Shown: one piece after another, positions 504-33,195 of the stretch
How the letters are laid out: each line of letters opens with the position of its first letter
Numbering within the stretch: the first letter of the stretch is position 1
Source of the DNA: Rhodocyclales bacterium
GTDB lineage: Bacteria > Pseudomonadota > Gammaproteobacteria > Burkholderiales > Rhodocyclaceae
Assembly: GCA_016235805.1 (NCBI GenBank)
Contig: JACRIY010000045.1
Coordinates: 1-35,523, forward strand
Direction of reading: 5' to 3'
DNA: 35,523 nt
The notes under the pieces: model-generated
Database searches by the model: none
The model's input: only the letters and a program-made list of their open reading frames with translations
What the model was told of the DNA's origin: nothing
Translations under genes and position numbers: made by a program

Positions 504-603
504 GGCATGGCTCCACGGATTGACGGCAGACCTCGCATGATAGGGAAAGCGCTTGCGCACCGCCATGGCACAAAACGACGATAAGTATGCATAATCTGCC
601 ATC

Positions 604-1710
604 ATGGTCAGTACTGAAAACCGCAGCCACAAGCCGGCAGGAAGCTCGCCGACAGTCTCAATGGGCTTTGTTACCGGGATTCTGTCGGGAGTCGCGCGTG
701 CCGGACTGAACCCCGCTGGACTGCTGGAACATGCAGAAATTGCCAGCAACCTCCTGCATCAGCGCGAGGCGCGCATCCCGGTCGCGCGTTATGCGGCGCT
801 CTATCGCCTGATCAACGACAGCCTCGACGACGAGGGCTTCGCGCTGTTCTCGCGTCCGCTGCGCCGCGGCAGCTTCGAGTTCCTGTGCCGCGCCGCACTC
901 TCGGCCGCAAGCCTGGAGGAAGCCCTGGAACGCATCGCGCGCTTCCTCCACGTCGTGCTCGACGACCTTTCCGTCGAGGTCGAGAAGAGCGGGCGCGCCG
1001 CGGTCATCGTCATCGGCGAGGAGCAGGCGCCGCCGGTCGGTGCCGCCGGCCGCGTCTTCGCCTACGAATGGCTGCTGCGCATGATTCACGGCCTCGCCGC
1101 GTGGCTGGTGGCGCATCCCCTGCCGCTCGACGAGGTCGCCTTCCCCTACCCGCCGCCGCTGCACGTGGCCGACTACGAACTGGTCTTCGCCCCGCGCCAC
1201 ACCTTCGACGCGCCGCGACTCGAGGCACGCTTTCCCGTCGAGTGGCTGGCCTTGCCGGTACGCCGCGACGAGGCTGCGCTGACGATCTTCCTCGCCGACG
1301 CGCCGGCCAGCATCACCACGCTCTACCGCCGCGACCGCGCACTGGCGCAGCGCGTGCGCGAACACCTGCGCGCCGCACTGCCCGAACACCTCGCGCTGCC
1401 GGCGCTGGCCAAACGCCTGTTCCTTTCGCCGCGCACCCTGCACCGCCGGCTGGAGGACGAGGGCACCAGTTTCCGCGCCATCAAGGACGGCCTGAGGCGC
1501 GAGCTGGCCATCGAATGGCTGTCGAAGACATCGCGACCGCTCAACCGCATCGGCACCGACCTCGGCTTTGCCGATGCCGCGGCTTTCTATCGCGCCTTCG
1601 CCGCCTGGACCGGCAGCGGGCCGCGCGAATACCGGAGACGCTTCGGCGGGACCGATTTTCGCGGAAGAAGTGATACTCTCGCCCACCCATCCTGGATGCC
1701 GCCAACGTGA
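604..1710 (+). CDS. AraC-family transcriptional regulator (Arabinose_bd-type N-terminal domain)
   Basis: This 368-residue protein has the two-part layout of the OruR/ArgR-like AraC subgroup: an N-terminal ligand-sensing domain (about residues 20-210, beginning [15 protein letters not shown]) and a C-terminal double helix-turn-helix (about 255-350). The first HTH is seen as [21 protein letters not shown] and the second as [22 protein letters not shown] with the family's PREYR ending. It is a cytoplasmic DNA-binding activator or repressor; no ligand can be read from the sequence. It lies divergent from icmF with about 100 bp between, suggesting control of that acyl-CoA mutase, which is inference. 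Its stop overlaps the GTG start of the hemerythrin gene (GTGA, 1707-1710), so the two are probably translationally coupled. The extra tail after residue 350 is unremarkable. Confidence 0.85.
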
Positions 1711-2138
1711 CGCCACCGCCCGCCAACACCCTGCCCGCCAACTTCGAGATCGGCATCGCCGAACTCGATGCCCAGCACAAGCGCCTGCACGCGCTTCTGC
1801 TGCGACTGCGCGACGCCGTGGGCAAGCAATACGGCTACGCGACGAATGCCATCCTCGACGAACTGGCGATCGAAACGCGCATCCATTTCGCGGTCGAGGA
1901 AAGCCTGATGCGCATGCTGTCCTTTCCCGACGTCGAGGCCCATGTCGACGAGCACGCGGACCTCACCCAGCAACTGGAAAAATTTCGCAAACGCGCCCAG
2001 GACTTTGAGGTCGCCGACGAACTGGCGGCCTTCACCCTGCAATGGCTGAACGATCACGTCGATCGATTCGACCGCGAATTCGTCGACCACTTCCTGCGCG
2101 CCGGCGTCAAGGCCACGGCCACGTCCCGCCAACCCTGA
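1707..2138 (+). CDS. Bacteriohemerythrin
   Basis: A 143-residue single-domain hemerythrin, starting with GTG inside the stop region of the AraC gene. All seven di-iron ligands of the family can be placed: His24 (DAQHKRL), His60 and Glu64 (HFAVEE), His79 and His83 (HVDEH), His117 and Asp122 (HVDRFD). The length and the four-helix pattern match soluble bacteriohemerythrins, which bind O2 reversibly at a non-haem di-iron centre and are thought to store or deliver oxygen or act as oxygen/NO sensors. The 4-bp overlap with the upstream regulator implies coupled translation, an unusual partnership; whether oxygen is linked to that regulator's targets is inference. No signal peptide, so cytoplasmic. 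Confidence 0.93.
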   Translation: MTPPPANTLPANFEIGIAELDAQHKRLHALLLRLRDAVGKQYGYATNAILDELAIETRIHFAVEESLMRMLSFPDVEAHVDEHADLTQQLEKFRKRAQDFEVADELAAFTLQWLNDHVDRFDREFVDHFLRAGVKATATSRQP

Positions 2139-2157
2139 CCGGACGCAAGGGCGGCGC

Positions 2158-2427
2158 TCAGACCGGGCGCTTGCCCGGATCCTGCACAATCGCATCCTCG
2201 TGATCGTGGACGGCCACCTCGTTTGTTTCGTCGAATTCACCGGACCGGGATTCTTCCTGGTGACATCCCGCCGCGCCGCCCGCGAGCTTGCGCACGCCGC
2301 AGGTTCCGCTTTTGCAACTGCCGGGGGCGGCGATTTCCACGCCATCGTTACCCATGCTCTTCAATATGAAATAGATGGCGCCGACCGAGGCGATCAGCAG
2401 GGCGATGGCTACCAGCGCAATAAACAT
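2158..2427 (-). CDS. Small single-span membrane protein with Cys motif, unknown function
   Basis: An 89-residue reading frame. Residues 1-23 form one strongly hydrophobic segment (MFIALVAIALLIASVGAIYF) that could be a membrane anchor or uncleaved signal. A short region follows with Cys38-KSGT-Cys43 and Cys55-His56, then an acidic, His-containing tail (VHDHEDAI). The ribosome site is weak. The hydrophobic N terminus and Cys spacing argue for a real gene, but I do not recognise a family and assign no function. It lies 90 bp downstream of the MATE gene on the same strand and could be the last gene of that operon; it converges with the hemerythrin gene. A spurious frame in GC-rich DNA remains possible. 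Confidence 0.5.
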   Translation of the reverse strand: MFIALVAIALLIASVGAIYFILKSMGNDGVEIAAPGSCKSGTCGVRKLAGGAAGCHQEESRSGEFDETNEVAVHDHEDAIVQDPGKRPV

Positions 2428-2517
2428 GATTCCGGCTCGCGAACGTTTGGAGCGGCAACTATAGCCCAGGCGGGAGCCCGTCGCGCCACGAGTCCGGCGC
2501 TTGCCGCGGCGCAGGAC

Positions 2518-3882
2518 TCAGGCGCGCACCCAGGTTCCGAGGCGGATGGCGCCCGCGATCATCACCGCGTAGATCACGAAGCCGGCGGCGATCACCATGA
2601 AGAATCCGCTGGCCGGCACCTGCCACACATGCACCGCGAGCCAGCCGCCGAGCGCGACCACGACCAGGCGGGCGACGCTGCCGGCCAGCGGCCAGAACAT
2701 GCGGCCCGCGCCTTGCGAGGCGAAGAACAGGGCCAGGCCGAGGCCGAACAGGCTGTAGCAGACACCAACGATCCGCAGGTAAGTGGAGCCGATGGCGAGC
2801 ACCGCCGGATCGGTGCTGAACAGGTCCATCCACAGGCCGGGCGCGATCGCCGCGACGATGCCGATGATGCCGGTGAGGATGGCCACCACCGCGCCGCCGG
2901 TCCAGGTGGCGCGCAGTGCGCGTTCGTGCTGGCCGGCGCCCATGTTGGTGGCGACCATCGTGGTCAGCGCCGTGCCGAAGCCGAAGGCGATCGGGATCAT
3001 GATGTATTCGAGGCGCGCGGCAACGCCGTAGCCGGCCAGCGCCGCGGTGCCGTAGCTGCCGATCAGCGCGGTGGCCGCGGCGATTGAGCCGTTGCTGAGT
3101 ATCGGGCTGAGGGAGGCCGGCGCGCCGACGCGCAGGATCGCGCGCAGGAATTCCCGGCGCAGTTCCCAGCGCACGCGCAGCAAGTGCACCGCCGCCCTGC
3201 CGTTCGACAGGTAGGCGAGCAGCACCGCCGTCGCGACCAGGTTGGCGCACAGCGTGCTGAGCGCCGCGCCGGCCAGACCCAGCCCGGCCAGCGGCCCCCA
3301 ACCGAAGACCAGCAGCGGGCACAGGAGCAGATGGAGCACGGCCGTTCCGGTCAGCATCGCCGAGGGCAGCACCATGTTGCCGGCCCCGCGCACGATGGCG
3401 GCGAGTATGTTGGCCAGGCAGATCAGCAGCGCGCCGCCGAACAGCACGGTCGAGTAGCTCAGCGCCGCAGCCAGCGCGGCGTCGCGCCCGCCCATGGCGC
3501 GATAGATGCCGCCGCCGAAGCCGAGCATGATCAGCATGAAGCTCGCCGCCAGCAAGGCCGCAATCAGCAGCGCATGCTGCGCGATCCGGTCGGCATCTTC
3601 GGCCCGCCCGCCGCCCAGCGCACGCGCCACGCCGGCCGTGACGGCGCCGCCGATGCCGCCCGCGGAAATCTGCAGCATCAGCATCGACAGCGGAAAGACC
3701 AGCGCCACGCCGGCCAGCGCATCCGCACCCAGCCGGCCTAGGATGTAGCCGTCGTAGCCGATGACGACGGTCGTGGCGAAGAGGCCGATCACGTTCGGCG
3801 TCGCCAGCCGGAACAGCGTCGGCAGCAGGGGCGCCTGCAGCAGGTCGCGGGTGCGGCTTGCCGCCGCGGCCATCGCCGTCAT
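2518..3882 (-). CDS. MATE-family multidrug/cation antiporter
   Basis: A 454-residue, very hydrophobic protein with about twelve transmembrane segments in two pseudo-symmetrical halves, the N half starting PLLPTLFRLATPNVIGLFATTVVIG-like and the C half near residue 240 with RVGAPASLSPIL. This is the MATE (MatE/NorM/DinF) pattern: export of cationic drugs, dyes or metabolites across the inner membrane using Na+ or H+ gradients. Length and topology are normal. The start at 3882 follows the cupin stop by four bases and has no strong ribosome site, consistent with translational coupling; Met4 at 3873 is an alternative. Its place third in a marR-cupin-MATE operon suggests efflux of a compound sensed by the MarR regulator. 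Confidence 0.88.
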   Translation of the reverse strand: MTAMAAAASRTRDLLQAPLLPTLFRLATPNVIGLFATTVVIGYDGYILGRLGADALAGVALVFPLSMLMLQISAGGIGGAVTAGVARALGGGRAEDADRIAQHALLIAALLAASFMLIMLGFGGGIYRAMGGRDAALAAALSYSTVLFGGALLICLANILAAIVRGAGNMVLPSAMLTGTAVLHLLLCPLLVFGWGPLAGLGLAGAALSTLCANLVATAVLLAYLSNGRAAVHLLRVRWELRREFLRAILRVGAPASLSPILSNGSIAAATALIGSYGTAALAGYGVAARLEYIMIPIAFGFGTALTTMVATNMGAGQHERALRATWTGGAVVAILTGIIGIVAAIAPGLWMDLFSTDPAVLAIGSTYLRIVGVCYSLFGLGLALFFASQGAGRMFWPLAGSVARLVVVALGGWLAVHVWQVPASGFFMVIAAGFVIYAVMIAGAIRLGTWVRA

Positions 3883-3886
3883 CGCG

Positions 3887-4345
3887 TCAGGCCGGCCAGG
3901 CGACCTTGCGCTGAACGGTCACGCCATCCTCGGTGCCGGGCGACGTCAGCCCGTCCTGCGGCGCCTGGATCACCAGGTAGTAAAGGTCTTCCTGCGAGTT
4001 GTTGCGCCAGGTGCGCTCGCCGGCCGGCGCCACGCGCAGCACGGTGCCGTCGCGGATTTCGATGACCTCGCCATCGACCTGGAACTGGCCGCGGCCCTTG
4101 AGGAAGACATAGAGCTCCTCGTGCTCGCGATGCGTGTGATAGAAGGGTACCTTCATTCCCGCCGGCAGGCAGTTCACCGACACTTCCATGCCGGTCAGCC
4201 CCAGCAGCGGATGCAGGAAGAACTTGCCGGGAATCGTGACGCCGGGCAGCGAGGCCACTTCGGCGGTGTAGCCCTTCCAGGCTTCGGCGGCGCCGAGGTC
4301 GGCGGCAGTGTAATTCCTGCCCTGAAGCGTTGCGGTCGGATTCAT
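3887..4345 (-). CDS. Cupin-domain protein
   Basis: A 152-residue single-domain cupin. Motif 1 is clear: His70-x-His72-x3-Glu76 (HTHREHEELYVFLKGRG). Motif 2 is recognisable as DGTVLRVAPAGERTWRN, but the canonical metal-ligand His of PxGxxH is Thr112, so the usual fourth metal ligand is missing. The start at 4345 is preceded by GAGGAGCTTCC-like purine-rich sequence, 20 bp after the marR stop; frames extending further upstream overlap marR and are rejected. Cupins of this size next to MarR and efflux genes are often small-molecule isomerases, dioxygenases or binding proteins; the substrate is unknown. The missing His may mean altered metal binding. Confidence 0.85.
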   Translation of the reverse strand: MNPTATLQGRNYTAADLGAAEAWKGYTAEVASLPGVTIPGKFFLHPLLGLTGMEVSVNCLPAGMKVPFYHTHREHEELYVFLKGRGQFQVDGEVIEIRDGTVLRVAPAGERTWRNNSQEDLYYLVIQAPQDGLTSPGTEDGVTVQRKVAWPA

Positions 4346-4365
4346 GGAAGCTCCTCGGAATGGGT

Positions 4366-4818
4366 TCAAGCGGACTCGACGCTCTCGGCCTGCAACGCGG
4401 CGGTGCACTCGTCGAGCAACAGGTGCAGGGCGGCGACGCGCTCCGTGCCGAGCAGCGCATTCACCTGCTGCTGCGCCGCCTTCCAGCACCGTTGCGCCTC
4501 GGCCTGCTTGTCGCGCCCGGCGGTGGTGATGGCGATCGAGCGGCTGCGCGCATCGGCGCCGGCCTCCTGCACCAGCCATCCCGCCGCCAGCAGCGGCTGC
4601 AGGTTGCGCGTCAGGGTCGAGGCATCGAGCCCCATGTGCCGCGCCAACTCCCCCGGCGCCAGGGGCCCCAGGCGCAGCACGTGGGTCAGCAGCGAATACT
4701 GCGTGGTCTTGAGGCCGACGCCCGCCAGTTCCGCGTCGTAGTGGCGCGACAGCAGGCGCGACAGCTGGCGCGTCTTGAAGTTGGTGCAGCCTTTGGGGGC
4801 GGCGATCGCTGGACTCAT
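4366..4818 (-). CDS. MarR-family transcriptional regulator
   Basis: A 150-residue winged-helix regulator. The N-terminal dimerisation helix carries Cys11 in CTNFKTRQLSRLLSRHYD, a position common in this MarR subgroup and possibly redox-sensitive. The recognition region is LAPGELARHMGLDASTLTRNLQPLL, followed by the wing with DARSRSIAITTAGR. The start is placed at the ATG at 4818, because the preceding stretch is unlike MarR sequence and contains the promoter. It heads a marR-cupin-MATE operon and very probably represses it through the palindrome at 4833-4851, which overlaps its promoter. The -10 box ends about seven bases from the ATG and no ribosome site is visible, so translation may be leaderless. 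Confidence 0.88.
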   Translation of the reverse strand: MSPAIAAPKGCTNFKTRQLSRLLSRHYDAELAGVGLKTTQYSLLTHVLRLGPLAPGELARHMGLDASTLTRNLQPLLAAGWLVQEAGADARSRSIAITTAGRDKQAEAQRCWKAAQQQVNALLGTERVAALHLLLDECTAALQAESVESA

Positions 4819-4824
4819 GCGATC

Positions 4825-4852
4825 ATTGTACCTGCAACTGTTGTAGTTGCAA
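4825..4852 (-). promoter_or_regulatory. Sigma-70-type promoter of the marR operon
   Basis: On the minus strand a -35 box TTGCAA (4852-4847) and a -10 box TACAAT (4830-4825) are separated by 16 bp. The expected transcription start falls close to or at the A of the marR ATG (4818), so the message may lack a leader. Confidence 0.65.
4833..4851. promoter_or_regulatory. Palindromic operator, probable MarR site
   Basis: A palindrome with 7-bp arms, TGCAACT and AGTTGCA, and a 5-bp spacer. It lies within the -35/-10 spacer of the marR promoter and overlaps the -35 box, the position expected for an autorepressor operator. The size fits MarR dimer sites. Confidence 0.65.
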
Positions 4853-4878
4853 GTATTAATTTGCCGGCCGAATCTCCA

Positions 4879-4899
4879 ACCAGATCTGCCAGATCTGGT
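4879..4899. repeat. Perfect 21-bp palindrome
   Basis: The arms ACCAGATCTG and CAGATCTGGT are separated by one central base. It can also be read as two 8-bp palindromes CAGATCTG spaced by one base. It lies upstream of the marR promoter and downstream of the cytochrome operon hairpin, in otherwise non-coding DNA; a second regulator-binding site is the likeliest role. Confidence 0.55.
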
Positions 4900-4947
4900 G
4901 CGGGGCGACGATGCTGGAACAGCCAGGCCACGCCGGGGCGGCGTTGG

Positions 4948-4981
4948 CAAGAGCAAGGCGCGAGACCACGCCTTGCTCTTG
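4948..4981 (-). terminator. Hairpin after the cytochrome/molybdoenzyme operon
   Basis: Perfect 13-bp arms (4948-4960 and 4969-4981) with an 8-nt loop begin seven bases after the cytochrome c stop codon. The stem is GC-rich and well placed for termination or mRNA 3'-end protection of the five-gene operon, but no T-run follows on the minus strand, so efficiency is uncertain. Confidence 0.6.
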
Positions 4982-4987
4982 TGGCAT

Positions 4988-5308
4988 TTACTTCAAACTA
5001 AGTACGTAATCCACCAGTGTCTTGACGTCCACGTCCTTGACGGTCGCGTTCGGCGGCATCGGGATCTGCCCCCAGACTCCCTTCGATCCCTTCTTGACCT
5101 TGACCGCCAGGTGCTCGGCGGCCGCAGAATCATTGGCATATTTGCGACCGACGTCCTTCCATGCCGGCCCCACCATTTTCTTGTCCAGCGTATGGCAGGC
5201 GAGGCAACCGTTCTTCTTTGCCAAATCCATCGCCTCCGCTTCGGTTGCTGCGAAAACCGGCCCGGCAAACAGTCCGCCGAGAACAAGGATTATCAGTTTC
5301 GACTTCAT
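4988..5308 (-). CDS. Small periplasmic class I cytochrome c (c551/c552 type)
   Basis: A 106-residue protein with a Sec signal peptide (about residues 1-21, cleavage after VFA-A). One haem site is present, Cys35-LA-Cys38-His39, with Met84 (in IPMPPN) as the probable sixth ligand. Length and the MVGPAW motif match small soluble c551/c552-type electron carriers. It is the last gene of the five-gene operon, 14 bp after the molybdenum subunit, with a good AGGAAAGGGA ribosome site. In aio operons a cytochrome c gene also follows the catalytic subunit; here it would shuttle electrons between the respiratory chain and the Rieske/Mo enzyme or the dihaem peroxidases. The direction of electron flow is inference. 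Confidence 0.92.
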   Translation of the reverse strand: MKSKLIILVLGGLFAGPVFAATEAEAMDLAKKNGCLACHTLDKKMVGPAWKDVGRKYANDSAAAEHLAVKVKKGSKGVWGQIPMPPNATVKDVDVKTLVDYVLSLK

Positions 5309-5322
5309 GGCTTCCCTTTCCT

Positions 5323-7998
5323 TTAGACGATGTGGCGCGGCTTGAGGCTCATGCGGGTCAGGTCGGTCTTGTATTCCGACTCGCCCACCTTGGTCAGCGT
5401 GCCGCGTCCCAGCTTGTAGCGATAGTTGTTGGTCATCGGATCGGGCACGGCGGAGACAACGGCGTTGGCCATCGATTTCGGTGTATTGAAATTCGACTTG
5501 GCAACCCCTTCCTTGATCTCGTCCGAGACGATGGCGACGGCCTTGAACTTGCCGACCGTGGTCTTGATGTGGCCGTCCTTCATCAACTGGTTGAAGGTCA
5601 AGTCGGCATCGAGCACGCCCTGCGGCTGGCCGGTCTGAACGTATACAGCATCATTGACGATCTCGACCCAGTCGCCCGATTCGATGCCGCGCTTCTTGGC
5701 ATCGTTGGGGTGGATGATGATGAAGTTATCCGGCCAGCGCTGGTGCAGATGTGGCTTGCGACGGTCATCGAATGCGGACTGCCAGGTCTCGTTGATGCGG
5801 CCATTGGTGACCCAAATTTCATTCTTCTCGGCGCGCGGCTTGACGGCCTCGAAGAACTGATACCAGCCCGGATACTTCCACGGACTCTTGAGCAGGATCG
5901 CCTTGCCGGTGAAGGTATTGAAGGAATACAGGAAATGCCGCTGAACTTCGCTGTCTTCCATTTCGCCCCAGTTGTTGCTCGGATCGTGCAAGCGCTTGGT
6001 GCCGACCAGCTTGCCGTCCTTGACGCGGATCGGAGTCTGGATGCCGGTGGTGCCCATGGTGCGCAGCAGTTCGTGGCCCTTGATGCCCATGTCCTTGGCC
6101 TTGGCGACGAGCGGCTGGTAGTTGAGCACGCCGCCGCGGCCGAAGCGCGCCGCTTCCTCGAAGATGTCGTTTGACGACTTCCAGTTGTAACTTCCGTCCG
6201 CCGTGTAACCCATTTTCTCGGCGAACTTCATCACCGCCCACCAGTCGGGCTTGGACTCGCCCGGCGCGTCATAGAACTTGGCGTAAAGCCGCAGGCGGCG
6301 TTCTGAATTGCAGCGCGTGAAGTCGTCCTCACCCCAGGTCGCGGCGGGCAGCACGAAGTCGGCGAACTCCGTGCCGACCGGCTCGCAGGGATAGATGTCG
6401 GAGTCGACCATCACCATGCCGCCGGCGTCGACCCGATTCTTCAGCGTTTCGAAGATCGCCGCGCGATCGAGGCTCATGATCTGGTGCGGGCTGCCGTTGG
6501 TCAGTTCCTTCATGCGCGCGCCGAGGGCATCGGAGGCCATCATTGCCGCCACCCAGGTGGTGCCGAAAACCCAGGCGAACTTCACTTCGCCGGCCATCAC
6601 CCAGCGATCCAGGTTGAAGCTCTTTTTACGCCGCCCCGGATGCTTTTCGGGATTGAGCCAACCGGAGCCGCCGCCTGCGCCCATCCAGCCGCGCTGGTGG
6701 CCACCGCCGCGCGAGATCATGCGACCCGGCCGGTTGCCGGCGCCACAGATCAGGCCCAGTGCCGCAAAGGACGTGGTGTTCATGTAGTTGTTGGTCCAGT
6801 AGTTGCCCTTCTCGCACATGAACGAGGTCTTCGGCGTCTGGCCCTTGACCGGCTTGGCAATCCACTCGGCGGCCTTGCGGATGTCCGCTTCCGGGATCCC
6901 GGTAATCTTGCTGGCCACGTCGAGCTTGGACTCTTCAGCGCCAAGGATGAACTTCTTGTAGTCCTCCCAATCGCTCTGCCAGGTGCCCCAGGTGGTGCGC
7001 CACTGCCAGCCCGTATTTCGCGTGCCGCGGCCGTAGCCGGAATCGACTTCCCAGGGCTTTGCGATCCACTGGTCGATGAAGGCCTGATCCTGCCAGCCGT
7101 TCTCGATGATGATTCTTGCCAGCGCGTTGTGCAGCACACTGTCGGTGCCGATGTTGATCGGCAACCACAGGCCGCGATCGTTGGCGACTGCCCAGGCCAC
7201 GCCCATGGTCTTGTGCGGCGTGACGAAGATCATCTTGGCGCTGCCCGGCATCATCCACTGGGTGAACAGCGTGGTCTTGGTTTCGTAGGGATCGACGCCC
7301 GAAAGGAAGGCCACGTCGGCCAGTTGCCAGTCCTCGTAACAGGACGAGAACGAGTCGATGCCCGCATCGTCGAGACCGGTGGCGTCGTTGGTGCCGGAGG
7401 CCTTGTCATGTGGCGCCACGGCCGGCGTGCCGACACTGGTCATGGCCAGTTTGGTGATCGCGTAGGTATTCTCGAAATACTGGTAGGAGTACATCTTCAC
7501 CGCCCAGCTGTGCTCGCCATACTTCGCCAGCACGTATTTCGAAATATCGGCCATCGCCTCGGTCGCCAGATCCCAACTCACCGGCGTCAGCTTGCCGTTG
7601 ACGCGAATCATCGGCTGCTGAAGTCGCTCGCGGGTCTTGGTCTTCGGGTTGTAGCACTTCTGGCCGAGCGTACCGCCGCGGATCGAATGGTTGCCGCCGA
7701 CATTGACCACGGTTGCGTCCTTGTCCGGCACGATGATGACATTGTGCGGCTTGCCCTTGTGGCTGACGACGTTGTGCTGAGCCGGGCTCACCCAAGCGGT
7801 CATCATGTTCTGGTGCGGGAAGTCGGCCTTCAGAGCATTCTGGCTTGCTGCCGGACCGCCCTCCTTCCCTACTGGCCAGCGATACACCTTGTAGCCGCAG
7901 GCCACGGTGCAGTAGTCGCAAGCCGTGGTGAAGACTTCGGCATCCTTCGGCGGCAGCGGCACGCGATCGGCGGCGATGTAGCGTTCGTTCTTGCTCAT
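5323..7998 (-). CDS. idrA: Molybdopterin oxidoreductase, AioA/IdrA family (iodate reductase-like catalytic subunit)
   Basis: I start it at the ATG at 7998 (891 residues), preceded by GAGGAGA; the frame extends six codons further to 8016 but would then overlap the Rieske gene. The N terminus has C27-x2-C30-x3-C34 in CDYCTVACGYKVYRW, the Fe-S motif of arsenite-oxidase-type subunits, then IRGGTLGQKC. Conserved MGD-binding blocks and the YEDWQLADV and SRGGGHQRGW segments follow. From a recalled alignment with the Alcaligenes AioA, the pocket Arg and His (here Arg430, His434) are kept, but the other two pocket residues (His and Glu) are not. No signal peptide: it is probably exported with the Tat-tagged Rieske partner. 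Two dihaem peroxidase genes in the same operon match the iodate reductase set IdrABP1P2, so IdrA or a relative is preferred over arsenite oxidase. A Trp-rich segment (about residues 316-344) looks like an insertion relative to AioA. Confidence 0.72.
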   Translation of the reverse strand: MSKNERYIAADRVPLPPKDAEVFTTACDYCTVACGYKVYRWPVGKEGGPAASQNALKADFPHQNMMTAWVSPAQHNVVSHKGKPHNVIIVPDKDATVVNVGGNHSIRGGTLGQKCYNPKTKTRERLQQPMIRVNGKLTPVSWDLATEAMADISKYVLAKYGEHSWAVKMYSYQYFENTYAITKLAMTSVGTPAVAPHDKASGTNDATGLDDAGIDSFSSCYEDWQLADVAFLSGVDPYETKTTLFTQWMMPGSAKMIFVTPHKTMGVAWAVANDRGLWLPINIGTDSVLHNALARIIIENGWQDQAFIDQWIAKPWEVDSGYGRGTRNTGWQWRTTWGTWQSDWEDYKKFILGAEESKLDVASKITGIPEADIRKAAEWIAKPVKGQTPKTSFMCEKGNYWTNNYMNTTSFAALGLICGAGNRPGRMISRGGGHQRGWMGAGGGSGWLNPEKHPGRRKKSFNLDRWVMAGEVKFAWVFGTTWVAAMMASDALGARMKELTNGSPHQIMSLDRAAIFETLKNRVDAGGMVMVDSDIYPCEPVGTEFADFVLPAATWGEDDFTRCNSERRLRLYAKFYDAPGESKPDWWAVMKFAEKMGYTADGSYNWKSSNDIFEEAARFGRGGVLNYQPLVAKAKDMGIKGHELLRTMGTTGIQTPIRVKDGKLVGTKRLHDPSNNWGEMEDSEVQRHFLYSFNTFTGKAILLKSPWKYPGWYQFFEAVKPRAEKNEIWVTNGRINETWQSAFDDRRKPHLHQRWPDNFIIIHPNDAKKRGIESGDWVEIVNDAVYVQTGQPQGVLDADLTFNQLMKDGHIKTTVGKFKAVAIVSDEIKEGVAKSNFNTPKSMANAVVSAVPDPMTNNYRYKLGRGTLTKVGESEYKTDLTRMSLKPRHIV

Positions 7999-8008
7999 GT
8001 TTTTCTCC

Positions 8009-8569
8009 TCAGGCACGCTTGGCAGTCATGGCGCTGTAGCCATACACCAGGCCTTGCACGCCAACGGCGTAGATGTCATCACCCTGCACCTCGAGCACGA
8101 TCTGCGGCAGGCTCTCGGTGGCATGGCCCGATATCACCATGCCGTGGCGGGTCAGGTCGAAGGTGGTCAGGTGCAGCGGACACGGGCCAAGTGCCTGATA
8201 GGCATCCTTGTAGGTCCCCTGCAGCGGACCGCCCATGTGCGGGCATTGCTGGTTGAAAGCCACCACGTCCATCGTGGGCCCGACGCCCCCGCCGGCTTTG
8301 GTGCCGAGCTTGACGAGGATGTTCTGCACGTTCGGGTAGGGGTAGGCGAACTCGACCGGCATGCCCTTCTTGAGTGCCGAAAGGCTGGCGATTTTCGTGC
8401 GTGAATAGCTGGCCTTCAGCGCGTGCATGGGCGCGGCTTCGGCTTCGCCAGGCAGGCCGATCGCGGCCAGGGTGACCATCGCGCCACCGGCGAGGAGGAA
8501 TTGCCGCCGGCTCATGCAGACAGGGTCGTCTTCATGATCGGCATGCACGGGTATGGTTTTTTCAGTCAT
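8009..8569 (-). CDS. idrB: Rieske [2Fe-2S] subunit, AioB/IdrB family, Tat-exported
   Basis: A 186-residue protein with a twin-arginine signal (SRRQFLLAGG at residues 20-29, then a hydrophobic stretch and an AEA-A cleavage site near 45). The Rieske cluster ligands are Cys109-x-His111 (CPHMGG) and Cys130-x2-His133 (CPLH). The two extra cysteines that form the disulphide in many Rieske proteins are Gly and Leu here, as in some arsenite oxidase small subunits. It would carry one electron at a time between the molybdenum subunit and periplasmic cytochrome c, and take the signal-less catalytic subunit through the Tat pore. AAGGAG lies just before the ATG; its stop is 10 bp before the catalytic gene's start. 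IdrB and AioB are closely related, so the name depends on the operon context. Confidence 0.78.
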   Translation of the reverse strand: MTEKTIPVHADHEDDPVCMSRRQFLLAGGAMVTLAAIGLPGEAEAAPMHALKASYSRTKIASLSALKKGMPVEFAYPYPNVQNILVKLGTKAGGGVGPTMDVVAFNQQCPHMGGPLQGTYKDAYQALGPCPLHLTTFDLTRHGMVISGHATESLPQIVLEVQGDDIYAVGVQGLVYGYSAMTAKRA

Positions 8570-8580
8570 GTCGGATCTCC

Positions 8581-9717
8581 TTATTTCACGGCCATCACTG
8601 GCGCGGGCAGGGGCTGGTAGTCGCCGGGCAGCTTGGGATCGTCGTGGATCAGCGGCTCATCCATCGACAGGGCTTCGAGGAATGCGACGAGGTCCTTCTT
8701 CTCCTGCACCGTGAGCTTGAGCGGCTTGAGCAGCGGCGTCTTGTTTTGCGCCGTGCCGCCACCCTGGTCATAGAACTCGACCACGTCGGCCAGCGTCGCC
8801 AGCATGCCGTTGTGCATGTAGGGCGCCGTGTATTTCAGCTCGCGCAGGGAGGGCACGCGCCACTTGCCGATGTCCTTGGGGTTCTTGGTGATGTAGAACA
8901 GCCCGTGGTCGTCGGCGCCGGTGCGGTAATACTGTTCCGGCACGCCCTTCTGGTAGAGCTCCCAGCGATGCGTCACCTGGCCGATAGGATCGTCCTTGAA
9001 GTTCGGATGCGCCGGCACGCCGGTGGCATAGAAGCGCTGGTTGGAAGCGAGCGGGCCGTTGTGGCACTGGATGCAGCCGGCCTTGCCGTTGTAAAGTGCC
9101 AGGCCCTTCTTCTGCGAATCGCCGAGCGCCTTCTTGTCACCCATCGCATAACGATCGGCAGGCACTTTCTTCGCCTCGGAATTCAGCGTGCGCTGATACG
9201 CTGAGATGGCACGCCAGGCATCATTGACGCGCGGCCATTCGGTGCCGAACACTTTCTTGAACTCGGCGACGTACTCCGGGATGAAGCGCAGGCGCATTTC
9301 CATCACCGAGTCGTCGCCATTGCCGGCCACGCCACCGCCGGCAGCGGCCGGCGCCTGGGCTTCGAGGCTGGTGACGGATCCTTCCCAGAACAGCTTGTTG
9401 TAGTAGGCGGAATTCAGCACGGTCTGCGAGTTGCGCCAGTGCTTGGTTCCCGGATAGCCGCGCGAAATCTGGCCGCCGTCGCCCCAGCCCAGCGCAGGCA
9501 GGTGACAGGAGACGCAGGGCATCGAGTTGTCCCCGGACAGCCGGCTTTCCCAGAACAGCTTTTTACCCAGCGCCACCTTCTCCGGCGTGTTCGGGTTGTC
9601 CTTCGGGATCGGTGGTGGGGGCAAGGGGCCGAGCTTGGGATACTTGTCGGCGGCGAGCGCCGAGAATGCCAGTGCCAGCACGCTGGCGGCAAGGGTGATT
9701 CGTAGTGTGAGTTTCAT
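8581..9717 (-). CDS. Periplasmic dihaem cytochrome c peroxidase (CcpA/MauG family; IdrP1/IdrP2-like)
   Basis: A 378-residue secreted protein (Sec signal about 1-22, cleavage near ALA-A). Two haem c motifs are visible, Cys68-VS-Cys71-His72 and Cys215-IQ-Cys218-His219, and the family block YMHNGMLATLADVVEFYDQGG lies near residues 310-330. Length and motif spacing are those of bacterial dihaem peroxidases, which reduce H2O2 to water with electrons from small cytochromes. In iodate reductase clusters two such proteins (IdrP1, IdrP2) accompany IdrAB and are proposed to remove H2O2 or other reactive by-products. It is second in the operon, with a GAGGAGA ribosome site and 11 bp before the Rieske gene. 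Which of P1 or P2 it corresponds to cannot be told. Proline-rich segment PPPPIP follows the signal. Confidence 0.85.
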   Translation of the reverse strand: MKLTLRITLAASVLALAFSALAADKYPKLGPLPPPPIPKDNPNTPEKVALGKKLFWESRLSGDNSMPCVSCHLPALGWGDGGQISRGYPGTKHWRNSQTVLNSAYYNKLFWEGSVTSLEAQAPAAAGGGVAGNGDDSVMEMRLRFIPEYVAEFKKVFGTEWPRVNDAWRAISAYQRTLNSEAKKVPADRYAMGDKKALGDSQKKGLALYNGKAGCIQCHNGPLASNQRFYATGVPAHPNFKDDPIGQVTHRWELYQKGVPEQYYRTGADDHGLFYITKNPKDIGKWRVPSLRELKYTAPYMHNGMLATLADVVEFYDQGGGTAQNKTPLLKPLKLTVQEKKDLVAFLEALSMDEPLIHDDPKLPGDYQPLPAPVMAVK

Positions 9718-9729
9718 CGCGCGATCTCC

Positions 9730-10815
9730 TCAGTTCTTGCCGTAGGCGGTCCAGACCTTCATGTCGGGCTGGCCGGGATCCTTGACGATGACAGGGTCGC
9801 CCGAGAGCGAGAGCAGGAAGGACTTCAGCGCCTGCTTTTCGGGGGCGGACAGATTGAGCGGCTTCAGCACCGAACCCGCGCCAGCACCCTTGTCATAGAA
9901 GTCGATGACCTCGTCGAGCGTGGCGAACACGCCGTTGTGCATGTAAGGCGCCGTGTACTTGAGGTCACGCAGCTGGGCGGTGCGGAACTTGCCCATGTCG
10001 CGCTTGTCCTTGGTGATCGCATAGGCACCGACATCGGTACGCGCGTTCATGTAGTTCGGCATGCCGGAGGTCGAGTAGTGCCGCAGCATGGTGATGGTGC
10101 GCAGCGGATTCTTCAGCACCTCGGGATGCTCGGGCACACCGGTCCTGTGCAGGTTGCCGTCGGAGCCGATCGGGCCGTTGTGGCAGGCCACGCAACCCGC
10201 CTTGCCCTTGAACAGCTCGTAACCCTGCTTCTGTTCAGCGGTCAGCGCGTTCGCATCGCCCTGCTTGAACTTGTCGAAGGGCGCGTTGGTGGTGCGTATC
10301 GTCTTGATGAACTCCCCGATGACGTTATAGACGCGCATGCCGTTGATGTCGTCCTTGCGCCACTTCGCCCACAGCGCGTTGTATTCGGGCACCTGCTTCA
10401 GGCGTTCCTGCATCAGTCGCGAATCCATGTTCATGGTGTGCGTCTCGGTGATCATGTCGCGCACCAGCGTGCCGGCGTCGGAGCCGTCGAGGCGGCCGTC
10501 CCACAGGTAACGCTTCTGGTGGGCACTGTTGATGACCGTGGGCGCGTTGCGGAAGTACTCCATCGACGGATACCCGGTCGACAGGGCTTGCCCGTCTCCC
10601 CAACCCTTTTGCGGGTTATGGCAGGTTGCGCAGGAAACGCCCCAGTCACCAGATATCCGGTTGTCGAAGAAGAAGTACTTGCCCAGTTCGATCATCGCCG
10701 CATTGCCGGGCTTGACCTCCGGCATCGGCGCAAGATCGGGGCCGGCCTGAGCCATGACCCCGGTCATTCCCGCGACCAGCGCGAGGCCGACGAGTTGCTT
10801 TCTGAGTGTTCGCAT
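9730..10815 (-). CDS. Periplasmic dihaem cytochrome c peroxidase, second paralogue (IdrP1/IdrP2-like)
   Basis: A 361-residue secreted protein (signal about 1-23), first gene of the operon. Haem motifs are Cys62-AT-Cys65-His66 and Cys208-VA-Cys211-His212; the C-terminal block YMHNGVFATLDEVIDFYDKG matches its neighbour. Both share GWGDG just after haem 1 and a (L/F)W(D/E)G motif. The two copies are clearly diverged, so they are old paralogues, not a recent duplication. The ATG at 10815 has a strong AAGGGGGAA ribosome site and lies about 66 bp from a sigma-54-type promoter. Expected role: peroxide or reactive-intermediate reduction in the periplasm, fed by the operon's cytochrome c; a MauG-like oxidase function is the alternative. 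Confidence 0.85.
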   Translation of the reverse strand: MRTLRKQLVGLALVAGMTGVMAQAGPDLAPMPEVKPGNAAMIELGKYFFFDNRISGDWGVSCATCHNPQKGWGDGQALSTGYPSMEYFRNAPTVINSAHQKRYLWDGRLDGSDAGTLVRDMITETHTMNMDSRLMQERLKQVPEYNALWAKWRKDDINGMRVYNVIGEFIKTIRTTNAPFDKFKQGDANALTAEQKQGYELFKGKAGCVACHNGPIGSDGNLHRTGVPEHPEVLKNPLRTITMLRHYSTSGMPNYMNARTDVGAYAITKDKRDMGKFRTAQLRDLKYTAPYMHNGVFATLDEVIDFYDKGAGAGSVLKPLNLSAPEKQALKSFLLSLSGDPVIVKDPGQPDMKVWTAYGKN

Positions 10816-10880
10816 GTGTTCCCCCTTGCGGTGGCAATTGCGCGTCGGCGGGACAATCCCGCTTCGCTACAGGGGATAAC

Positions 10881-10895
10881 GCAGGCTTCGTGCCA
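10881..10895 (-). promoter_or_regulatory. Sigma-54 (-24/-12) promoter of the five-gene operon
   Basis: On the minus strand TGGCACG-AAGC-CTGC (10895 down to 10881) gives the essential GG at -24 and GC at -12 separated by exactly 10 bp, with the -24 element a full match to the TGGCAC consensus. The predicted start is near 10870, leaving a leader of about 55 nt. The adjacent gene pair encodes a sigma-54 activator, which strengthens the call. Confidence 0.78.
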
Positions 10896-11001
10896 AGGTC
10901 CGAATTCGGGCACTGCGTGCCAACAGCCGGCTGATGGTGGCGCCAGGCACGACTGCACCCGCGATCACTGGTTAGAAATCGCCCGCCACGTCGAAAATCG
11001 C

Positions 11002-11020
11002 CCGGTCGAAATTCGACCGG
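11002..11020. promoter_or_regulatory. Perfect 19-bp palindrome, probable enhancer site of the response regulator
   Basis: The arms CCGGTCGAA and TTCGACCGG are separated by one base. It lies about 130-150 bp upstream of the predicted sigma-54 transcription start, the usual place for an NtrC-type upstream activating site, and abuts the response regulator's stop codon (11021-11023). A related half-site GTCGAAAATCG occurs just beside it (about 10990-11000). A terminator for the regulator gene is the alternative, but no T-run follows the stem. Confidence 0.6.
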
Positions 11021-12391
11021 TCAAGGCGAATCGGGCTCGCCGATTTCCTTGAGTTTGCTGCGCAGGGTGGCGCGCGTGATGCCGAGTATTTCGGCGGCGC
11101 GCGTCTTGTTGCCGGCGCACTGCGCCAGCACAAAACGGATATGCGCCGCCTCGGCGACCGCTAGGGTCAGGCGTGTCGTGTCGACCGAAGCAAGCGCAAG
11201 AGTCGGCGCTGGTGCCACGGCGTTTGCGATCTCCAGCGGCAGCTGAGCAGCTTCTATCACACCACGATCAGCCAGGATTACGGCGCGCTCCAGAACGTTG
11301 CGCAGTTCGCGAATGTTCCCCGGCCAGGCGTAATTGACCAGCAGATACTCGATATCCGGAGTCAGCGCGACCGGGCCTGTCCCCGTCGCGCGCACTGCCT
11401 CGGCGACGAAATGGCGCGCCAGGTCGGGGATGTCCTCGCGCCGCTCGCGCAAGGCCGGCACATCGATACTGCCGACATTGAGGCGATAGTAAAGATCCTC
11501 GCGAAAGCTGCCGACACGCACCATCTCCGGCAGCTTGCGATGGGTCGCGGCGACGAAGCGCACATCGACCTGGATTTCCCGACTGCCGCCAAGGCGACGG
11601 AAACTCTGCGTCTCCAGCACGCGCAGCAATTTGGGCTGCAAGGCAAGCGAGAGGTCACCGATCTCATCAAGGAACAGCGTGCCGCCGTCGGCGAGTTCCA
11701 GCAGGCCGCGCTTCTGCTGCTTGGCATCGGTGAAGGCACCCTTTTCGTGGCCGAAGAGTTCCGACTCCATCAAGCCTTCGGGCAGGGCCGAGCAGTTCAG
11801 CGTCACCCAGGGGCCGCCGCTGCGCGGCGACTGGCAATGAATCGCGCGCGCCACGCGTTCCTTGCCCGACCCGGATTCGCCATGGATCAGCACCGGCACA
11901 TGGGGCGCGGCTGCTATCCGCTGCGTAACGCGCAACAACTCGCGAAACGCCGCGCTGTCACCCACCAGGCCATCGAGTTCGCAGACATTCGATTGCGCTC
12001 GGCGCCATGCCACTTCGCGGCGCAAGGATCGAGTCTCGGTAGCACGGTCGATCAAGCCCGCTAGGTCTTCGAGGTCGAAGGGCTTGTTGATGTAATCGTA
12101 GGCGCCGGCCTTGAGCGCGGCCACCGCTGTTCGCACCTCCGGGTAGGCGGTCATGGTGATGACCAGCACCTCGTCGTCGATTTCCCGCAGGCCGGCGATG
12201 ATCTCCAGGCCATTGATGTCCGGCAGGCGAATATCCAGCAGGACGATCTCGTGACGGCGCTCGCGGGCATGAGCCAGCCCCCGCTGGCCGTTTTCCGCTA
12301 GATCGACTTCGAAGCCCTGGCGGCGCAGGAAGTTGCCCAGCGTCAGGCGCAGGGTGTCGTCGTCCTCGATGATCAGGATATGGCTTGCCAT
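11021..12391 (-). CDS. NtrC-family sigma-54-dependent response regulator
   Basis: A 456-residue three-domain activator. Receiver: residues 1-115, acidic pocket EDD near 9-11, phosphoacceptor Asp53 (LLDIRLP), Thr/Ala and Lys103 (NKPF). AAA+ domain: about 140-385, Walker A GESGSGKE (171-178), Walker B LFLDEI (239-244); the sigma-54-contacting loop is GAFTDA (218-223) instead of GAFTGA. C-terminal Fis-type HTH: about 415-450 (NKTRAAEILGITRATLRSKL). It activates sigma-54 RNA polymerase from an enhancer after phosphorylation, presumably by the kinase encoded four bases upstream. The neighbouring operon has a -24/-12 promoter and an enhancer-like palindrome, so that operon is the likely target. AioR, regulator of arsenite oxidase, has the same architecture. 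Confidence 0.92.
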   Translation of the reverse strand: MASHILIIEDDDTLRLTLGNFLRRQGFEVDLAENGQRGLAHARERRHEIVLLDIRLPDINGLEIIAGLREIDDEVLVITMTAYPEVRTAVAALKAGAYDYINKPFDLEDLAGLIDRATETRSLRREVAWRRAQSNVCELDGLVGDSAAFRELLRVTQRIAAAPHVPVLIHGESGSGKERVARAIHCQSPRSGGPWVTLNCSALPEGLMESELFGHEKGAFTDAKQQKRGLLELADGGTLFLDEIGDLSLALQPKLLRVLETQSFRRLGGSREIQVDVRFVAATHRKLPEMVRVGSFREDLYYRLNVGSIDVPALRERREDIPDLARHFVAEAVRATGTGPVALTPDIEYLLVNYAWPGNIRELRNVLERAVILADRGVIEAAQLPLEIANAVAPAPTLALASVDTTRLTLAVAEAAHIRFVLAQCAGNKTRAAEILGITRATLRSKLKEIGEPDSP

Positions 12392-12395
12392 GGTG

Positions 12396-14381
12396 TCAGG
12401 TGAATGCGGGCCAGGTAAGCGTTATGCAGGTTCCGTGCCCTTGCCGGCTATCGACCACGATTTCTGCGCCGTGTTCGCGCAGGATCTTGGCGGTGATGGC
12501 GAGGCCCAGGCCTGAACCGCCCTGGCGGGTGGTAAAGAAGGGATCGAAAATGCGCGGCAGCACCTCCGGCGCTATACCGGCTCCGGAGTCCTCGATGCGT
12601 ATCCGCAAGCGGCCTCCTTCAGCCGCCGCTGAAATCGCTATCCGACCCTTGCCGGGAATGGCATGGATCGCATTCACCACCAGGTTCAGCAGCACCTGCT
12701 TGATTTGCGCCGGATCGGCACGCAGGGCCGGCAAATCGACGGCGATGTCAGTCTCGATCTCGATTCCACTCGACCTTGCTTCCTTGCGCGTCCAGAACAG
12801 CACGTCGTCCACCGCCTCGGCAAGCTTGCAGGGTTTCGGGTCAGGCGGCGCGACGACCGAGAATCCGTGAAAGCTGCGCAGGAAATCCGAAAGGCGATCG
12901 ACTTCCGACTCGAAGCGATGCATTGCTTCGCGAATGCCTGGCGGCAGATCCTCTTCGAACTGGATCGCTTGCGCCACCGCTTTCATTCCGGCCAGCGGAT
13001 TGCCGATCTCGTGGGCGATGCCCATGGCCAATTCGCCGAGGGTGGCCATCTTGTCCATCAGGAACATCTGGCGGTCCAGTTCGCGCCGGGTCTCCTGCTC
13101 CTGTTCGAGTTCGGCGGTGCGCGCCCGGACCTCCTGCTCAAGGCGATCTCGGTGGCTGGCGAGCGAGTTCACAAGCTGTTCGATATGGCCCGCCATGGCA
13201 TTGAACTTCTCCCCCAGCGCGGCAATCTCGTCGCGACCGTGAATCTCGACACGCCGCGAAAAATCGCCGGCCACGATGGCCTCTGTCTCGCGGCTCAGCG
13301 CATCGAGTGGCCCCAGCAAATGGCGCGATATCGCGAAGCCGCCGATCGCCGTAGCCAGCAGACTGACGGCTAGGACGGCGTACAGCACATACAGGTTGAA
13401 AACCGACATCAGCAGAATCTTTTCGGGGAACCCGACCGCGATGACCCAATGCGCTCCCTCGGTGCTGGGGTAAGCCGCGCCGAAGCGGATCGCGGCATGG
13501 GCAAAGATGTTGCCGGCCACAGTACGCGTGCCTTCCGCCTGGCCCAGGATCTGTGCCAGCACCTCGGCTCCAAAGCGATCGGCAAGTTTGCCGGTCGGCT
13601 GCATCGCAAACTGCTCGCTGGATTCCGAGGTACGCGCCAGGTAATGCCCGGAGCGGTCGAAGAGATAGGCCGTGCCTGACTGCGCCCGCGCCATTTGCTC
13701 GATCTGTTCAAGCAGGAATCCGGCATGCAGGTTGATGATCAGCACGCCTTCGTTGCCACCCGCACCGCTGCCAATGGGAGTGGCCACCCGGATCACCGGC
13801 CTTTCGGGCTTTTCGATGCGGCCGAACTCGACGTTCAGATCCAGGGGCGAAACATAAAGCTCGCCGGGACGCCGCTTCATCGCTTCGACAAAATAGTAGC
13901 GGTCCGCCTTGTCCTGCAAGCGGTGGTCCGGGATGACTTCGACCTTGCCATCCTTCTTGTCCACCCTGACCAGTTCCCGGCCTTGCGCCGACAAATAGCG
14001 AATCTGGTAAATGTGGGGATAGGTAGTCGCCAGGGTGGCGTAATCGTTCGCCAGTCGCGTCGTGGCGGCGCGAAGACGATGAATGTCGCCCCTGGCGCCA
14101 GCGGCACGCACCTCTTCCAGTTCAGGAGCAGCCGCCAGATAGATCAGCTCCGCCGACAACTGGTCGAAAAAGCGACTGATCCCCTGCGCGCGAACAACGA
14201 CCTCCTGCTGCAAATGGTTCAGCGTTGCCGTCCGCAATGTGTGCAATGAAACGTAGACGCCAATCAGGCCGGCAATGGCAGTCGGAATCACCGCCACCAG
14301 CAGGAAGGCGATATAGATCCGCCGCGCCAGGCCGCGCGCTTGTCCAGTATCGAAAGTTCTCTCGTTCTGCATCAGGGGCAA
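12396..14381 (-). CDS. Membrane sensor histidine kinase (dCache-HAMP-HisKA-HATPase)
   Basis: A 661-residue kinase. A transmembrane helix at about 22-46 and a second at about 325-352 bracket a periplasmic double-Cache-like sensor domain (about 50-320, with YQIRYL and DRYYFVEAMK typical of dCache). HAMP follows (about 352-405), a coiled coil, then HisKA with the phosphoacceptor His457 (GIAHEIGNPLAGM) and the HATPase with N box Asn570, G1 DSGAGI (598-603), F box DPFFTTR and G2 GGSGLGLAI. The frame begins with TTG at 14381; the ATG at 14372 is an alternative. It precedes the response regulator by four bases, so they form a pair. The periplasmic sensor suggests detection of a small extracellular ligand; its identity is unknown. 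It follows the cus operon on the same strand and could receive read-through from it. Confidence 0.92.
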   Translation of the reverse strand: MPLMQNERTFDTGQARGLARRIYIAFLLVAVIPTAIAGLIGVYVSLHTLRTATLNHLQQEVVVRAQGISRFFDQLSAELIYLAAAPELEEVRAAGARGDIHRLRAATTRLANDYATLATTYPHIYQIRYLSAQGRELVRVDKKDGKVEVIPDHRLQDKADRYYFVEAMKRRPGELYVSPLDLNVEFGRIEKPERPVIRVATPIGSGAGGNEGVLIINLHAGFLLEQIEQMARAQSGTAYLFDRSGHYLARTSESSEQFAMQPTGKLADRFGAEVLAQILGQAEGTRTVAGNIFAHAAIRFGAAYPSTEGAHWVIAVGFPEKILLMSVFNLYVLYAVLAVSLLATAIGGFAISRHLLGPLDALSRETEAIVAGDFSRRVEIHGRDEIAALGEKFNAMAGHIEQLVNSLASHRDRLEQEVRARTAELEQEQETRRELDRQMFLMDKMATLGELAMGIAHEIGNPLAGMKAVAQAIQFEEDLPPGIREAMHRFESEVDRLSDFLRSFHGFSVVAPPDPKPCKLAEAVDDVLFWTRKEARSSGIEIETDIAVDLPALRADPAQIKQVLLNLVVNAIHAIPGKGRIAISAAAEGGRLRIRIEDSGAGIAPEVLPRIFDPFFTTRQGGSGLGLAITAKILREHGAEIVVDSRQGHGTCITLTWPAFT

Positions 14382-14429
14382 TCTTAGGCTAACGGAGTAC
14401 GATCCCCAAACTCCAGCTCCGTCGTCGCT

Positions 14430-15059
14430 TCAGCCGGGCTGCCGGCGCAGACGACCGTGCGCGACATAGCCCATACCAAGTTGCGTCGATTCGACCTCGA
14501 ACCCATCGCAGGATCCGGCAACAATGTCCCAGGGGTTCCAGAGTTCGCCAGCCTTCGCGTTGTATGGCCGGTTCTTCAGCCAGGCCAGCAAATTCAGCGG
14601 CCCCGTCCACCACGGGAAGAACTTCATACCGGCCACTGCGATCCGCGCCCCCGGCTTGGACTGGCGCAGGATGTTGGACACCGCCTGCGGCGTGCGCGTG
14701 ATGTCATGCACGTAATTGAACAGCACGGCATCGGCGGGTTCGGGCAACTCGACGGTTTCCGCAGGCGCGTTGCAATGCCAGACGTTGGTCCAGGCGTGGC
14801 GATTCACCCGCGCCTGCGCGTGCCCGAACATCTCCGGACTCTGCTCGACGGCAAGCACCCGGCCAGCCGCGCCGACGCCGGCGAGCAGCAGTTCGTAACT
14901 CAGTCCGGTGCCGGCACCCACATCGAGCACCACATCGCCTGGCCGCAGGTCCAGCAGTGCCACGGCGCGACGGCGCAGCGGCATGGTGCGACGCGCCGAG
15001 GCATCGTAGCCGGCGGCATGGCGACTATAGCGATCGACCGATTGGCGATCCGGACTCAT
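14430..15059 (-). CDS. Class I SAM-dependent methyltransferase
   Basis: A 209-residue protein starting at the ATG at 15059, which overlaps the cusA stop in an ATGA junction (15056-15059). The same frame runs far upstream, but that extension is only the shadow of cusA. A Rossmann SAM-binding motif I is seen as VLDVGAGTGLSYELLL (about residues 42-57), motif II around VLAVEQSPEM and a motif-IV-like DAVLFNYVHD near 110-120; the overall pattern resembles UbiE/PMT-type small-molecule methyltransferases (for example phosphatidylethanolamine or quinone methylation). Substrate unknown. Translational coupling to the copper efflux pump suggests co-expression with metal stress, possibly for membrane-lipid modification; that is inference. 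Confidence 0.85.
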   Translation of the reverse strand: MSPDRQSVDRYSRHAAGYDASARRTMPLRRRAVALLDLRPGDVVLDVGAGTGLSYELLLAGVGAAGRVLAVEQSPEMFGHAQARVNRHAWTNVWHCNAPAETVELPEPADAVLFNYVHDITRTPQAVSNILRQSKPGARIAVAGMKFFPWWTGPLNLLAWLKNRPYNAKAGELWNPWDIVAGSCDGFEVESTQLGMGYVAHGRLRRQPG

Positions 15060-18211: not shown

Positions 18212-18212
18212 G

Positions 18213-33192: not shown

Positions 33193-33195
33193 GCT

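Follow-up and report, generated by a model that had tools for sequence, protein, structure and literature searches.

Described iodate reductase systems

The described systems closest to the locus analysed here are the dissimilatory iodate reductases (Idr), which are summarized from the available portions of the published accounts. Azoarcus sp. DN11 grows on iodate and expresses idrA at levels 59- to 104-fold above those seen with oxygen or nitrate; its Idr proteins are characterized by the motif CX2CX3CX70S in IdrA, a Tat motif and CXHX18CX2H in IdrB, and two CX2CH motifs in IdrP (PMC10149662). In Denitromonas sp. IR-12, deletion of idrA abolished growth on iodate (PMC8692401). The organization idrP2, P1, B, A is given for Pseudomonas SCT, Denitromonas IR-12 and Methylomirabilis iodofontis (PMC10989891), and the available text of a wider survey states that idrP1P2 always precedes idrAB and records a two-component system and cytochrome c551 as accessory genes of iodate-reduction islands (PMC8801600).

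Here we describe a locus within a stretch of 35,523 nucleotides, analysed whole and hereafter called the window, whose host is taken as a Sulfuritalea-type bacterium. The standard gene order, the placement of IdrA and the presence of recorded accessory genes lead us to regard it as very probably a canonical dissimilatory iodate reductase operon, idrP2-P1-B-A, furnished with its own c-type cytochrome and a dedicated two-component system.

Operon composition and gene order

The operon consists of five open reading frames arranged head to tail on the minus strand between positions 10815 and 4988:

9730-10815, minus strand: idrP2, the first operon gene, encoding a di-haem cytochrome c peroxidase/MauG-type protein (PF03150, E 1.4e-35)
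8581-9717, minus strand: idrP1, encoding the second di-haem peroxidase (PF03150, E 1.3e-37)
8009-8569, minus strand: idrB, encoding a Rieske [2Fe-2S] subunit with a Tat motif (PF00355, E 1.1e-5)
5323-8016, minus strand: idrA, encoding the molybdopterin catalytic subunit, with an alternative ATG at 7998 (PF18465, Rieske_3; PF00384, Molybdopterin; PF01568, Molydop_binding)
4988-5308, minus strand: gene for a c551-like cytochrome c with one CXXCH (PF00034, E 1e-8)

Three of the intergenic gaps measure 12, 11 and 14 bp, while idrB and idrA overlap by 8 bp if the GTG start of idrA is used and lie 10 bp apart if translation begins at the in-frame ATG (M7, base 7998). The initial annotation, which described a tight five-gene operon in the order P-P-B-A-cytochrome c with gaps of 10-14 bp, thus holds for the genes, their families and their order, and for the gaps given the ATG start. 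It also equated the component set with IdrA, IdrB, IdrP1 and IdrP2, an equation that families, motifs and the IdrA tree all bear out. The CXXCH motifs fall at residues 62 and 208 of IdrP2 and at 68 and 215 of IdrP1; IdrB combines SRRQFL (Tat) with CXHX18CX2H; and CX2CX3C at residues 33-40 of IdrA, taken together with the invariant Ser at 111, yields the IdrA motif CX2CX3CX70S. The motifs of IdrA, IdrB and IdrP are therefore those given for the DN11 proteins, and two di-haem peroxidase genes adjoin idrAB. Identities to DN11 are 77% for IdrA, 73% for IdrB, 70% for IdrP1 (against the second P gene), 80% for IdrP2 (against the first P gene, locus L144), 68% for the response regulator and 59 and 65% for pieces of the histidine kinase; IdrP2 is also 81% identical to its counterpart in Azonexus (L021).

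The initial annotation further held that the gene order differs from that of known iodate reducers. This claim arose from mistaking the name idrABP1P2 for a gene order: idrABP1P2 is a list of names, and the transcribed order is idrP2-P1-B-A, as both the literature and the surveyed loci attest. Among 101 distinct IdrA-clade rows, 18 with less than 3.3 kb of sequence upstream of idrA were set aside and 83 were scored; P2-P1-B-A was found exactly in 78 and with split or extra matches in two more (L062, L139), giving 80/83 with the window counted, while the order A-B-P1-P2 occurred in none of the 83. Of the three exceptions, L059 has only A, L064 has P-A, and L102 has P-B-A followed by P. The contig scan retained the best 80 idr loci and represents a sample, not a census. 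With 80 of 83 loci, from several phyla according to the record titles, carrying P2-P1-B-A, chance is of no concern for the gene set. A few members of the clade depart from the common composition. Two loci from Dehalococcoidia and Chloroflexi assemblies (L060, L064) carry IdrA-clade genes with no detectable IdrB and with one peroxidase gene directly before idrA, the first of these having only 3 kb of upstream sequence, and in a Planctomycetaceae locus (L059) idrA has no detectable companion idr gene, IdrB included, for 10 kb to either side.

The fifth gene is a less frequent companion. Of the 101 IdrA-clade loci, 9, the window counted, have a cytochrome homologue no more than 5 kb downstream of idrA; loci with 1.2 kb or less of downstream sequence were scored as lacking one. 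The c551-like cytochrome c of the window is the likely electron donor.

Placement of the catalytic subunit

The resemblance of the B-A-cytochrome portion to aio operons, pointed out in the initial annotation and confirmed by the NT-26 aio operon, which shares this order, is the argument for placing the locus in a divergent lineage that lies between arsenite oxidase and iodate reductase and has a gene order of its own. The order, however, is standard for idr, and the tree of AioA and IdrA proteins proposed in the initial annotation as a check does not bear out an intermediate position. The tree comprises 107 rows (LG+G4, with SH-aLRT as the sole support measure). The window protein pairs with that of a same-genus locus (L030, genome G022; SH-aLRT 100) inside a 5-row set (100), and the window, DN11 and Azonexus fall together in a 10-row IdrA clade (98). 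A 23-row set (99) also holds L148, which is probably Denitromonas IR-12, although the order inside this set is partly unresolved. The terminal branch of the window is short (0.067). Its protein occupies a terminal position among the IdrA sequences, in one clade with DN11, and the six AioA form the opposite side. The root within IdrA is unsure because of long branches among the AioA and deep IdrA rows. The tree omits L040 (too short), four duplicates, and L037-L039, L135, L149 and L150 (too short, or repeating or fragmentary copies of loci whose genomes were already represented), and none of SCT, TC-10 and Roseovarius azorensis, whose iodate reduction is confirmed, appears in it under its name.

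Pairwise identities give the same picture. The window IdrA is 91% identical to the L030 protein, 87% to that of G164, 77% to those of DN11 (G295) and of an Azonexus hydrophilus plasmid, and 74-91% to the closer members of its family, as against 28-31% to six plasmid-encoded AioA; other IdrA copies in the same genus are more distant, at 57-66%. Taken together, these results make a divergent lineage between the two enzymes highly improbable.

An arsenite oxidase accompanied by accessory peroxidases would, for its part, account for the scores of two NCBIfam arsenite-oxidase models, since TIGR02693 matches IdrA, and TIGR02694 matches IdrB (113.1 bits, cut-off 95.65), above their cut-offs. We mapped the window residues onto what we take to be the His, Arg, His and Glu positions of the AioA substrate pocket, and in the alignment H203, R436 and H440 of the window protein keep the His, Arg and His. 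The pocket Glu, by contrast, is present in 6/6 AioA rows and is replaced by Asp in the window (across 101 Idr rows, this position is Asp in 49, Ser in 46, Ala in 4 and Glu in 2), and the six AioA rows carry GGHQE where the window has GGHQR. The tree moreover places the catalytic subunit outside AioA, and the window encodes two peroxidases, whereas the available literature describes aio neighbourhoods without cytochrome c peroxidase genes. No aioX-like gene was found among the 30 window proteins scanned. We accordingly give this alternative almost no weight, even less than the divergent lineage. The same model matches mean that automatic annotation can hide idr under arsenic names; in the Azonexus record, for instance, the idr genes are annotated as arsenate reductase (azurin) (L021 12013-14691).

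Residue 206 varies among the 101 IdrA rows (Pro 70, Cys 27, Ala 3, Asn 1). It is Ala in the window, and the other two Ala rows are DN11 and L148; because DN11 also has Ala206, the residue does not point to the window enzyme doing anything different. Residue 206 was considered as a possible molybdenum ligand and discarded; the Cys of a Cys-type molybdopterin enzyme from the same genome aligns at 207, the neighbouring position.

Two-component system and control region

Two further genes, linked upstream and read in the same direction, lie outside the interval 4988-10815 that the initial annotation covered, and two candidate control elements precede idrP2:

12396-14381, minus strand: histidine kinase with a dCache sensor domain (PF02743, PF00672, PF00512, PF02518)
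11021-12391, minus strand: sigma-54-dependent response regulator (PF00072, PF00158, PF02954)
11002-11020, no strand assigned: palindrome CCGGTCGAATTTCGACCGG, candidate enhancer site of the response regulator
10880-10895, minus strand: promoter of the sigma-54 (-24/-12) type, TGGCACGAAGCCTGCG, 80 bp before idrP2

Regulators immediately before idrP2 in 11 further distinct loci are 61-94% identical to that of the window, and kinase homologues are found upstream of RR-P2-P1-B-A in the two-component-linked loci. The kinase is a possible iodate sensor.

The control regions were compared across 86 distinct upstream regions of at least 200 bp, of which 12 are linked, meaning that a regulator at least 60% identical to that of the window stands directly before idrP2, and 74 are not; one of the latter (L094) does have an adjacent regulator, but this is only 35% identical. 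The promoter pattern TGGCAC-N6-TGC occurs in all 12 linked loci, in 0/74 of the others and in 9/8600 base shuffles, and in the linked loci it is situated 73-109 bp before the idrP2 start, with starts placed by alignment. The palindrome, allowing up to two mismatches to CCGGTYA-N5-TRACCGG, is likewise found in 12/12 linked loci, 0/74 others and 32/8600 base shuffles, counts that should be read with the knowledge that the consensus was drawn from the same loci later counted and that the 12 loci are related. Measured from the promoter, the start of the palindrome, which is close to CCGGTCA-N5-TGACCGG, lies 91-176 bp further upstream in these loci. On balance, we favour the view that a dedicated iodate-sensing two-component system moves together with idr and that the palindrome and the sigma-54 promoter jointly serve as its operator. 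A literature search found no description of an iodate-responsive promoter, and the available part of the DN11 paper names only the regulator gene (PMC10149662).

On its own, the palindrome carries little weight. With up to one mismatch it occurs at two places in the window, where 0.52 would be expected, and two or more turn up in 9 of 100 shuffles. Exact copies are found at six places in the host genome, the window included. A wider palindrome regulon in this genome was considered and rejected: with up to one mismatch there are 70 places per strand vs 272 for a reversed-pattern control, and the genome-wide search is therefore uninformative. The only other exact place with an AT-rich middle (C24) was also discarded, being inside a predicted ORF that, on reading its sequence, resembles a hydrolase.

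Distribution and mobility

An IdrA match at E 1e-150 or better is present in 17 of 297 genomes of the family drawn from a larger group, the host's own included. Window positions 1-20000 were compared with 31 genomes of the genus, again including its own, and the distances given here are those among the matches listed. The flank on the side of the AraC-type gene (window 1-1646 or 1-2108) and that on the cus side (window 14455 or 15075 onwards) are ~1.1 kb apart in G006, G030 and G011 and ~5.7 kb apart in G002; none of these four genomes, nor G018, has an IdrA match. In G006, which also lacks the MATE-cupin-MarR stretch, 166 bp separate a match to window 4872-4942 from the sequence matching window 14455 onwards. 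In G018 the gap between window 2517-4857 and window 14445 onwards is 265 bp and holds a stray copy of window 15077-15310; from this junction it follows that G018 lacks the cytochrome-to-kinase block of ~9.6 kb. The idr block of G022 occupies the same spot as in the window (G000), and in G008 idr adjoins cus in reversed orientation, and DNA matching the regulator gene at ~71% lies ~12 kb further on. The cytochrome-to-kinase block appears mobile and stands here beside the cus efflux operon. Its variable site, found in occupied and empty forms, lends itself to the study of island movement.

Several features of the surroundings can be recorded alongside. The variable spot, window 4858-14445 (L156-L161), is located in Sulfuritalea between an AraC-type gene and methyltransferase/cus genes, and published iodate-reduction islands, in the available text, also have cus genes nearby (PMC8801600). 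Next to the cytochrome gene, and not within any ORF accepted as a gene, lies a stretch of ~72 bases (window 4872-4943) of which G006 and G030 have a copy close to the cus operon; in G018 it turns up at a different place on the contig. G022 carries two idr loci, L030 and L034, whose IdrA proteins are 91% and 66% identical to that of the window; within the stretches compared, a linked two-component system is found at L030 only. Finally, GlmS-like and GlmU-like genes lie at window 31363-34557, ~17 kb beyond the kinase gene.

Predicted function and significance

As judged from sequence, every test made fits idr, the optional moaA excepted. What the DNA itself shows is the set of genes with their motifs and order, their placement in the family, and the conserved promoter elements, and from these we strongly infer that the organism would reduce iodate. 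Both optional accessories, the two-component system and the c551-like cytochrome, are present. Tblastn with the Azonexus MoaA gave no match in the window; moaA is linked to idr in Azonexus and Thiothrix, and the available survey text reports it missing in 5/10 genomes of the known clade (PMC8801600). No match to the chlorite dismutase family was found in the host assembly (80% complete, 130 contigs), and the literature, as available, describes this enzyme as absent from all but two of 145 predicted iodate reducers.

An Idr-family enzyme could instead serve mainly for another oxyanion in the cell, such as bromate, chlorate or selenate, as substrate is not readable from sequence. Against this stand the 77% IdrA identity and the operon and two-component layout shared with DN11, an iodate respirer, the induction of idrA on iodate in that strain by 59- to 104-fold (PMC10149662), and the fact that a freshwater iodate respirer with idr is already known (PMC8801600), both from the available text. 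A different main substrate, also raised in the initial annotation, is accordingly very unlikely, though less so than the two arsenite-related readings.

Under the iodate reductase reading, the dCache domain of the kinase would detect iodate, its presumed ligand, and the kinase would phosphorylate the sigma-54 response regulator. The phosphorylated regulator would then bind the CCGGTCA-N5-TGACCGG-like palindrome and activate the -24/-12 promoter ahead of idrP2. Exported jointly with the Tat subunit IdrB, IdrA would reduce periplasmic iodate to hypoiodous acid, which would disproportionate to iodide and iodate, both steps following the published IR-12 model. In the same model, electrons would pass from the quinone pool through bc1 to cytochrome c551, here probably the encoded one, and the two di-haem peroxidases may remove oxidising by-products, as proposed in the available DN11 account (PMC10149662).

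With this locus, a Sulfuritalea-type host joins the organisms likely to reduce iodate, and an easy misreading of idrABP1P2, which denotes names, not gene order, is put right. The conserved promoter and palindrome offer a directly testable model of how iodate switches on idr and, if the operator reading is true, would amount to a defined promoter that responds to iodate and could serve as a biosensor for it.

Comparison with known systems

Among the systems compared, the arsenite oxidase AioBA of NT-26 (L024) resembles the window in its Rieske and molybdopterin subunits, in its B-A-cytochrome order and in having a response regulator upstream, 37% identical to that of the window; it differs in its 29% identity, the absence of peroxidase matches, the presence of AioX and its position on the opposite side of the tree. 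Denitromonas sp. IR-12 (probably L148) shares the arrangement HK-RR-P2-P1-B-A-cytochrome c and the same kind of promoter and palindrome, whereas its IdrA is 74% identical and its host came from marine sediment, according to the available source (PMC8692401). The plasmid of Azonexus hydrophilus NCP973 (NZ_CP151407.1) likewise carries HK-RR-P2-P1-B-A-cytochrome c, with IdrA at 77%, but has moaA after the cytochrome gene and Tn7-like genes nearby; beside its idr cluster (L021 17317-26688) are TnsA- and TnsD-type genes and an IS21 element. A literature search found no phenotype for this strain. The cluster of Azoarcus sp. DN11 is without a cytochrome c gene, unlike that of the window, and the DN11 locus analysed here lacks both cytochrome c and moaA, in agreement with the available published text (PMC10149662). 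In its other features DN11 matches the window: it has the order HK-RR(sigma-54)-P2-P1-B-A and the same motifs (PMC10149662), an IdrA of 77% identity, and the same kind of promoter and palindrome.
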